A stretch of DNA of 20,775 nt from IMG/VR virus record IMGVR_UViG_3300046018_000045, positions 1-20,775 of that record, one strand, 5' to 3'. The notes below the pieces were generated by a model. It was not told where the DNA came from. It did no database searches and was given only the letters and a program-made list of their open reading frames with translations. The position numbers and the translations under genes are program-made. This document shows, in pieces, positions 11,553-20,775 of the stretch. The stretch is from a virus. Positions within the stretch are counted from its first letter, which is position 1, and every line of letters begins with the position of its first letter.

Positions 11553-11577
11553 AAAGCCCCGTAATTGGGGCTTTTTT
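11553..11577 (+). terminator. Rho-independent terminator between convergent operons
   Basis: A perfect 8-bp stem AAAGCCCC (11553-11560) / GGGGCTTT (11567-11574) encloses the loop GTAATT and ends in T6 (11572-11577). It begins 15 bases after the stop of the giant virion gene and ends the + late operon. Read on the - strand the same hairpin is followed by CTTTCTTTTT, so it may also stop transcripts of the opposing operon, whose last gene ends 12 bases away at 11589. Confidence 0.9.
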
Positions 11578-16895: not shown

Positions 16896-16926
16896 AAAAA
16901 GCCCCCCGCCTTTTTAGGGGCGGAGG
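16896..16926 (-). terminator. Hairpin terminator upstream of the polymerase genes
   Basis: Read on the - strand, CCTCCGCC (16926-16919) pairs with GGCGGGGG (16910-16903) in an 8-bp stem with one G-U pair and loop CCTAAAAA, followed by GCTTTTT (16902-16896). It lies downstream of the candidate ssDNA-binding gene and 19 bases before the 77-aa/polymerase gene pair. It would therefore reduce, rather than abolish, expression of the downstream replication genes unless a promoter or antitermination helps. Confidence 0.7.
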
Positions 16927-19649: not shown

Positions 19650-19900
19650 AGTATTTCTCTGATGATGTTAGATTGTTCGGTTGATGTGTAATTGCATTCG
19701 AGAATTTGTATGAAATAATATATGTGTAGTATGTCGTATTTAGATCTTGGTGGGATCATGAGTGCAGATTCATTTAAGTCTCGATCTGCGGGTAAGATGT
19801 AGCGATAACATCCTAACCAATCAGCTAACATCCTGTGGGTGGAAGGAGTTAGTTGATTCTTGTAAGTACATATGGCAAGAGATTCAGATATCGTCAACAC
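19610..19900 (-). CDS. 96-aa hypothetical protein
   Basis: A frame from GTG 19900 (Val-Leu-Thr-Ile start) to 19610, overlapping the preceding gene by 17 bases and the nuclease gene by 40. It fills what would otherwise be a gap of over 230 bases in a tightly packed operon, which supports it. The sequence is rich in Tyr, Ile and Leu (MLADWLGCYRYILPADRDLN, DILHIYYFIQILECNYTS) with two to three Cys, and looks globular and helical rather than membrane-bound. GAAGAA lies a few bases upstream. No known domain is recognised. A TTG start one codon later is equally possible. Confidence 0.55.
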   Translation of the reverse strand: MLTISESLAICTYKNQLTPSTHRMLADWLGCYRYILPADRDLNESALMIPPRSKYDILHIYYFIQILECNYTSTEQSNIIREILCYPSKYKLTPES

Positions 19901-20150
19901 TGATTTTCTTCAAGGATTTCCCCTTGTTTCCTGAGAGGATTGATGTTGTGATTGTTGTTTGAGTTTGCTTAGACAGTCCTGACACAATGATAGATACTTG
20001 TTCTGGTGTGAGTAAGGTAACGAGTTCAGGATCTTGTTTGAGGTTGGAGTGGATATCTCGTAACAATGTGGGCATATTAGGGAGGGTGGATTGAACTGCA
20101 TTGTAGAGTTCCTGAATTTTAATTGAGATTGCTTCGTGTTGAGTTGTCAT
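19884..20150 (-). CDS. Small helical conserved phage protein (LTPEQVSIIVSGL type)
   Basis: An 88-aa protein from ATG 20150, sharing ATGA with the preceding gene. It is predicted to be all helical: AISIKIQELYNAVQSTLPNM, PTLLRDIHSNLKQDPELVTL, and LTPEQVSIIVSGLSKQTQTT. This arrangement ('PxxxLLxxIHxxLxxDPExVxLLTxEQxxxIVxGLxxQT') is one I recognise from small proteins near phage replication genes, without a known function. The C-terminus is Lys/Ser-rich and ends ISVDDI. It could be an adaptor for the nuclease/ATPase module downstream. Confidence 0.7.
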   Translation of the reverse strand: MTTQHEAISIKIQELYNAVQSTLPNMPTLLRDIHSNLKQDPELVTLLTPEQVSIIVSGLSKQTQTTITTSILSGNKGKSLKKISVDDI

Positions 20151-20395
20151 ATTGAGTCCAAAGTTATGAGTGGTTTGATTGCTATGCGAAATTTAATGAT
20201 TGATCCTTCTCTCTTTGTATGCATCACTGCTTGTACTGGAGGAAAGCGTTCTGTGCATTCTAATTTGTAACCTATATCCATATCTTTTTCTTTAGTTACT
20301 GCCTTAATTATGCGGCGGTGATAAGCCCTGTGAGCTGAGATATCACAAAATCCATTAGTTTTTATCTCAATCCAAACAGGTTCATACTGACGCAT
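20147..20395 (-). CDS. 82-aa conserved phage protein, start codon inside an RNA stem
   Basis: An 82-aa protein beginning MRQYEPVWIEIKTNGFCDIS. Next come a basic helix (AYHRRIIKAVTKEKDMDIGY) and strands (KLECTERFPPVQAVMHTKRE, IIKFRIAIKPLITL). I recognise the overall pattern from small uncharacterised phage proteins ('W...K..G...I.A....H.RI.KAV.KEK..D.GYK') but not a function. An in-frame TAG two codons upstream makes ATG 20395 the first possible ATG. The only Shine-Dalgarno-like AGGA is one base from it, which is too close for efficient initiation. Start codon and AGGA both lie in the 3' arm of an 18-bp inverted repeat, so translation is probably controlled by that structure. Confidence 0.7.
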   Translation of the reverse strand: MRQYEPVWIEIKTNGFCDISAHRAYHRRIIKAVTKEKDMDIGYKLECTERFPPVQAVMHTKREGSIIKFRIAIKPLITLDSI

Positions 20396-20474
20396 ATCCT
20401 AACACTCTAGATTTCTGCATTGATCTTAACTCAGGGAGGAGAAGTTAAGTTACCAGCTAGAATGTTAGGATATG
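20393..20474 (-). promoter_or_regulatory. Nested RNA structure sequestering the start of the 82-aa gene
   Basis: An 18-base inverted repeat (20393-20410 with 20457-20474) encloses a perfect 7-bp inner stem (CTTAACT at 20425-20431, AGTTAAG at 20443-20449) with an 11-base loop, TCTCCTCCCTG on the - strand. In the - strand RNA all 18 outer positions pair; the one imperfect pair is G-U (positions 20405/20462), whereas the + strand RNA would have C-A there. The ATG at 20395 and the AGGA at 20400-20397 are inside the outer helix. This predicts blocked initiation unless the helix is opened by an upstream ribosome, a protein or another RNA. The structure is seen; the control role is inferred. Confidence 0.7.
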
Positions 20475-20477
20475 AGA

Positions 20478-20502
20478 TCCAAGTTTTTATCAGGAACTTG
20501 GA
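20478..20502 (-). promoter_or_regulatory. Leader hairpin downstream of the 54-aa gene
   Basis: A perfect 8-bp inverted repeat, TCCAAGTT (20478-20485) and AACTTGGA (20495-20502), with a 9-base loop. It begins 12 bases after the stop of the 54-aa gene in the transcript and three bases before the long nested element. A competing 5-bp pairing (TCAGG at 20490-20494 with CCTGA at 20505-20509) uses part of the same sequence. There is no U tract, so it is not a simple terminator. A ribosome at the upstream stop would cover its base. Confidence 0.5.
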
Positions 20503-20513
20503 AACCTGAATCA

Positions 20514-20678
20514 TTACTCTTGTGTTGGGGCTGGCATATCAGCTTGAGCCAAGATACCTGAACCAATTTCAGTTGGAATAGATTTCACTTCTTCTCCAGC
20601 AGGTTGAATTGCAAGAGCTGGATCATTAACAACTGGAGCTGGATTTTCGGATGGTTGTGCAAGAGTTTCGTCTGTCAT
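20514..20678 (-). CDS. 54-aa acidic Pro/Ala-rich hypothetical protein
   Basis: A 54-codon frame from ATG 20678 to TAA at 20514, with a strong ribosome site AAAGGA about five bases upstream. An in-frame TGA follows the TAA directly. The product is acidic and rich in Pro, Ala, Glu and Gln (MTDETLAQPSENPAPVVNDP, then ALAIQPAGEEVKSIPTEIGS), with no Cys, Trp, aromatic core or membrane segment, so it is likely disordered. Not recognised. The excellent ribosome site and its position before the structured leader suggest it is well translated and may also help open the downstream hairpin. Confidence 0.6.
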   Translation of the reverse strand: MTDETLAQPSENPAPVVNDPALAIQPAGEEVKSIPTEIGSGILAQADMPAPTQE

Positions 20679-20741
20679 TTTATTTCCTTTATACAGTTAA
20701 GAAAGTTAGACAGTTTTATATCATGTCTAGGATGGGAGAGA

Positions 20742-20775
20742 TTACAATCCCAGATTATCTTCCAAGCTCTCCTCT
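20742..20775 (-). CDS. Possible C-terminal end of an upstream gene (cut by window edge)
   Basis: From base 20774 leftwards one frame reads ten residues, EESLEDNLGL, then TAA at 20742. The acidic, Leu-containing ending is plausible for the previous gene of the - operon, but ten codons prove little. A second frame stays open longer and ends at the TGA overlapping the next start codon. Sequence to the right of the window would decide. Confidence 0.3.
   Translation of the reverse strand, partial: EESLEDNLGL

Follow-up and report, generated by a model that had tools for sequence, protein, structure and literature searches.

The window analyzed here, i.e. the whole 20,775-nt stretch of viral DNA, encodes on its - strand a PD-(D/E)XK nuclease, a Sak4-like AAA ATPase, DNA polymerase I, and a primase/helicase, and a gene of 82 aa is the first to follow a structured leader (Table 1). 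These neighbors show that the locus was correctly assigned, in a preliminary description, as the head of a nuclease/ATPase/polymerase operon. The contig has no close GenBank phage by megablast, its polymerase shares no more than 34.5% identity with that of any GenBank phage, and the 82-aa protein has no tblastn match among GenBank phages. Two strong intrinsic-terminator-like sites on the - strand (16903-16926 and 11553-11574) are the best candidates for the ends of the operon transcripts.

Table 1. Structured elements and genes around the start of the 82-aa gene, listed in the direction of transcription (window positions).
Feature	Position	Strand	Evidence
54-aa gene upstream of the leader; its stop codon (20514-20516) precedes the pseudoknot	20514-20678	-	ORF
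H-type pseudoknot, UCAGG/CCUGA + CCAAGUU/AACUUGG	20479-20509	-	Sequence; starts 4 nt after the 54-aa stop codon; wcaG-like
P1 5' arm (CAUAUCCUAACAUUCUAG)	20457-20474	-	Inverted repeat; compensatory change at 18/18 pairs, 11 copies
P1b 5' side (CUG)	20454-20456	-	Invariant in class I; class II swaps jointly with partner (AUG/CAU, AUC/GAU, AAC/GUU)
Internal loop 5' side (GUAA)	20450-20453	-	Invariant across 11 aligned copies
P2 hairpin, CUUAACU-loop-AGUUAAG	20425-20449	-	Covariation at 4/4 tested pairs
P2 apical loop UCUCCUCCCUG, 11 nt	20432-20442	-	CUCC in apical part of 17/27 members vs. 7.5 in shuffles
Internal loop 3' side (AUCAAUG; consensus RUCAAWG)	20418-20424	-	Near-invariant in alignment
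P1b 3' side (CAG)	20415-20417	-	Same P1b swaps as 5' side
AAAU bulge	20411-20414	-	Sequence; site of additional hairpin P3 in class II and L450
P1 3' arm (CUAGAGUGUUAGGAUAUG); last 3 nt are the start codon	20393-20410	-	Inverted repeat, covariation, AUG position
82-aa gene, first gene after the leader	20147-20395	-	ORF; relatives at 76 loci; Shine-Dalgarno energies

The two arms of the hairpin (18 nt each, 94% complementary) form the first-listed inverted repeat of the whole window, and one pair between them is imperfect, reading as G-U in RNA of the - strand and as C-A on the + strand. For the 82-mer of the - strand, the folding energy is -31.7 kcal/mol, compared with -12.9 ± 2.75 in 200 shuffles (z = -6.84), none of which is as stable, and the long helix with one G-U pair that had been proposed from the letters is therefore upheld. 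The inner stem with an 11-nt loop is likewise present, with a CUCC-rich loop that recurs across copies more often than expected (Table 1). Two features had been overlooked: three extra pairs (CUG/CAG) lengthen the helix across the AAAU bulge, and a second structured element, the pseudoknot, lies just 5' of the hairpin. The ATG of the 82-aa gene (20395-20393) supplies the final three bases of the P1 3' arm and, as described earlier, lies within the stem together with an AGGA (AGGA-U-AUG), although with 1 nt between them the two are closer than a normal Shine-Dalgarno allows. An earlier start is impossible because a TAG lies in frame two codons 5' of this ATG, and the MRQYEP start is kept among homologues.

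We find that the hairpin belongs to a clearly conserved family of phage RNA structures that had not been catalogued. A protein search with the 82-aa gene returned eight contigs whose leaders have an invariant core in common and differ in the flanking helix, and pattern scans of IMG/VR supplied further members, for about 25 distinct ones. Membership required the core, after which P1 was measured; the P1 score is 14-19 in true members and at most 7 in every other core match, and a relaxed rerun on 3.2 Mb gave the same set. The consensus consists of a P1 of about 18-23 bp, a P1b of 3 bp, a near-invariant internal loop (GUAA/RUCAAWG), a variable P2, and an optional P3.

Eleven copies align without gaps, with 95.6% of cells paired, two-sided changes at 22 of 25 pairs, and compensatory changes at every pair of P1 (18/18) and every tested pair of P2 (4/4). 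The covariation score is 0.694, as against 0.203 in shuffles and 0.06-0.13 when the partner strand is slid, and RNAalifold independently recovers P1 and P1b. The preliminary description had named covariation as a check, with a conserved sequence and lost pairing counting against the helix; we find the opposite, i.e. P1 is a long double-stranded helix in which pairing is kept while the sequence changes. P1b is CUG/CAG throughout class I, without variation. In class II, found upstream of more distant 82-aa relatives, an additional hairpin (P3) follows AAAA, and P1b takes one of three other forms, always paired; since class II members were picked as the best-paired candidate, this pairing rate is somewhat favored, while the concerted swaps are unaffected.

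The mismatched positions also carry a strand signal. Under symmetric scoring, G-U outnumbers A-C on the gene's strand by 31 to 11 (P = 0.0014, approximate, because the copies are related by descent and P-values are optimistic as a result), which argues that selection acts on the RNA of that strand. A count of 58 to 12 was discarded because its scoring favored G-U, and the symmetric count replaces it.

The position of the element is nearly constant. A profile search finds relatives of the 82-aa protein at 76 loci, and among their leaders a covariance model has 16 strong matches, each upstream of the 82-aa gene and all on its strand. The class II set corresponds to weaker matches of this model, and class II pattern matches with the helix also precede 82-aa relatives. 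The element occurs once per record where searched, and, with one exception, every copy is followed by an 82-aa relative; the exception (L095, from a G+C-rich phage) precedes an unrelated 58-aa gene and a ParB-methylase. One locus (L003) keeps the 82-aa gene and lacks the core, and a short stem there still ends at the AUG. Hundreds of bases can separate the element from the gene (L002, L005, L416, L432, and L450), and in L002 an inserted ORF lies between the two. This ORF of 145 aa (L002, 4558-4995) appears by eye to be HNH/AP2 homing endonuclease-like, and the start of the 82-aa gene is duplicated beside it. Searches of GenBank phages for the hairpin core gave only 18-base chance matches, 950 kb of other pseudoknot-bearing contigs contain no hairpin, and the P1 helix is found in none of the stretches fetched from cellular genomes, among the matches listed.

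The preliminary description had also proposed a switch in which the helix locks the start codon, and the enclosed start codon of that proposal is a recurrent variant within the family. The AUG lies in the helix in the window, and this placement, at the P1 foot and 17-19 nt past the core, recurs in 8 of 15 class I copies. Elsewhere it is outside P1 and, as such, is not a defining feature: in the remaining class I copies the gene start is displaced downstream by 14-44 nt, or by about 240-440 nt where an insertion intervenes, and in L002 and L005 the AUG is far downstream of P1. In three copies (L012, L422, and L457), the AUG at the P1 foot opens a mini-ORF of 6-7 codons terminating on the gene start or no more than a few bases from it, an arrangement that, by its layout, looks like translational coupling.

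Sequestration of a Shine-Dalgarno in the stem, another part of the same proposal, is unsupported because the 82-aa gene family has none. Specifically, its median duplex energy is +0.3, compared with -2.0 for downstream genes, and duplexes of -6 kcal/mol or stronger occur in 1 of 76 relatives, compared with 12% of downstream genes, whose starts were assigned mechanically. Strong stems are present in 47% of 68 dereplicated 82-aa leaders and in 3% of 369 control windows from the same loci (P = 3e-16), with 3' ends spanning -40 to +16 of the start codon, independently of the core. The intergenic spot before the 82-aa gene seems to collect structured RNAs.

Other helices are seen in the same spot. 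Long helices of unrelated sequence lie in the 82-aa leader of L418, L413, L424, L436, L450, and L405, and reach the start codon in L418, L424, and L450. In L396, L401, L406, and L451, the place of the hairpin is taken by another conserved structured leader (UGAUCCUGGACGCAAUCC ... CAGGGUAGGAUCA), within about 170 nt 5' of the 82-aa homologue, for which the leaders of L396, L401, and L451 have no Rfam match.

The pseudoknot upstream is widespread, with one strict pattern finding it in at least 120 viral contigs (e.g. L137, L150, L161, L174, and L460). Most relatives have a main form (NNNNC-CU-GAGCA-U-GNNNN-AAAAC-UGCUC), and the window, L033, and L076 have the wcaG-like form. Among 77 distinct sequences, pairing is kept in most cases at the two free pairs of the pseudoknot's own P1, through many different pair types, and in every case in its P2. 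Its position relative to the upstream stop codon is restricted: where the upstream ORF is clear (116 cases), the distance is never below 4 nt, and in 38 of them it is 4-5 nt. It also lies at most 13 nt 5' of a tRNA in 20 of 128 cases, and follows a tRNA in none of the 128.

For window positions 19800-20775 and the relatives' loci, Rfam 15 has no family at or above gathering score, the sole such match being a tRNA elsewhere in L196, and the pseudoknot matches no Rfam family at gathering score either. A limited search of the open literature found no paper on a phage pseudoknot after stop codons. The closest known counterpart of the pseudoknot is the wcaG RNA, a phage-associated element (PMC2864571). 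The window matches positions 55-84 of the 98 in this model (RF01761) at 20.8 bits, below the gathering score of 42, but the first 54 positions are unmatched and the window pseudoknot does not precede wcaG-type genes. As this partial match adjoins the hairpin and is not inside it, we rejected wcaG RNA as the identity of the hairpin. We also rejected an intrinsic terminator, given that the hairpin is absent from the terminator-like sites and that the stem is followed by AUGCGUCAG, without a U run. A likeness of GGUAAC-hairpin-GAUCA to the 16S rRNA 3' end was dismissed because its second half is not conserved.

Comparable arrangements exist in well-studied phages. The phage lambda N leader and the RNase III sites of the T7 early region are stable hairpins just 5' of an early gene that can limit translation or serve as processing sites. 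The hairpin described here resembles them in its stability and in its place just 5' of a phage gene, but they are not known to have an invariant junction across distant phages, and cleavage is here only a candidate. In T4, gene 32 and RegA exemplify autogenous translational control of a phage DNA-metabolism gene. Our locus likewise has such a gene behind a structured leader to which the gene's own product could bind, although sequence and structure are unrelated, and by analogy one may guess that the 82-aa protein binds its own leader. This protein is basic (pI 9.5) and its AlphaFold model has a pLDDT of 87.9; the best VIA-align match is to SpoVS (Z = 6.0), with Alba-like folds at Z = 4 and Foldseek E values above 0.1. 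We did not retain a nucleic-acid-binding fold, as these matches are too weak (Z of 6; E above 0.1).

The covariation, the strand-specific G-U bias, and the fixed place before the 82-aa gene give strong support to a leader RNA at the head of the nuclease/ATPase/polymerase operon. We consider an uncatalogued cis-RNA family in phages well supported and its mechanism plausible. The reading we prefer, with a probability of about 0.5, is a cis-acting mRNA leader that controls expression of the 82-aa gene, with which a DNA recombination/replication operon begins. The folded leader would hold the initiation region in a state of low access; the AUG at the foot of P1, where present, either starts the 82-aa gene or opens a mini-ORF ending at or near the gene start. 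Conservation of the junction implies that it is recognized by a protein, a small molecule, or the RNA itself; it may be bound by a protein, which the phage itself might encode (e.g. the basic 82-aa protein), or by another factor, or P1 may be cleaved instead. Either event would change ribosome access, and with it the expression of the 82-aa gene and the genes behind. Counting against cis control are the AUG outside P1 in about half of the copies, the locus with no core (L003), and the copy before an unrelated gene (L095).

The main rival is an RNA processing site, in which a double-strand RNase, e.g. RNase III, cuts P1 and so opens the leader; the upstream message would be parted from the replication operon, and little or no leader would remain before the 82-aa gene. 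A long, near-perfect helix whose sequence drifts while pairing stays also fits such an enzyme, and relatives have different helices at the same place. Lying between the stop codon and the hairpin, the pseudoknot would protect the 3' end left by the cut, and the same pseudoknot occurs immediately 5' of tRNAs, themselves processing sites. Cleavage, however, leaves the invariant GUAA/RUCAAWG junction and the co-varying P1b unexplained, and we regard it as unlikely on balance. These bases are what a self-cleaving ribozyme or ligand-sensing riboswitch would be built on: about 18 invariant internal-loop bases flanked by co-varying helices are the usual look of such RNAs, and Rfam riboswitch aptamers and small ribozymes have the same design of a conserved internal loop between co-varying helices. 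Yet neither the window nor its relatives match any ribozyme or riboswitch family of Rfam 15, with only chance matches far below gathering scores at E values up to 0.5-10, and the operon points to no metabolite, making this quite improbable.

A stand-alone small RNA acting in trans (regulator, decoy, or guide), produced from the intergenic region and merely adjacent to the 82-aa gene, could account for the copies hundreds of bases from that gene and for the one beside an unrelated gene (L095), and GGAG sequences are possible pairing partners of its CUCC-rich apical loop. It is distinctly doubtful in view of the near-constant synteny with one gene family and the gathering of helices on its start codon. 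The DNA-level role suggested in the preliminary description, i.e. a replication origin hairpin or a protein operator, would suit an inverted repeat at the head of a replication operon; it has become less likely with the G-U bias on the gene's strand, and given that P1 conserves pairing rather than sequence and that the core is strand-specific, we hold it very improbable. A broader possibility, which we consider unlikely, is a new class of functional RNA: a junction-based sensor or self-processing RNA, with the start codon of a phage gene lacking a Shine-Dalgarno at its foot, that acts jointly with the widespread pseudoknot, fixed 4-5 nt past the preceding stop codon, to separate neighboring messages.

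The cis-acting leader would open a test of RNA-level timing of replication-gene expression in phages. With the hairpin, phages known only from metagenomes gain an uncatalogued, well-supported RNA family whose structure can be tested. The hairpin also points to a phage gene that lacks a Shine-Dalgarno and whose translation start repeatedly sits against strong RNA helices. The pseudoknot may be the larger find. Cultured phages infecting Mycobacterium, Arthrobacter, Paracoccus, and Synechococcus carry it, which makes laboratory testing possible at once; annotated examples are Labelle (Mycobacterium), Molivia (Arthrobacter; between ssb and tRNA-Gly), S-RIM4, and ParMal1. Our guess is that it is a 3' element anchored to stop codons that insulates or protects message ends. 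Just after the pseudoknot in L134, L229, and L155, where ARAGORN detects no tRNA directly following it, lie tRNA-like structures with an apparent acceptor stem and T arm, in which an enlarged pyrimidine-rich loop replaces the anticodon arm.
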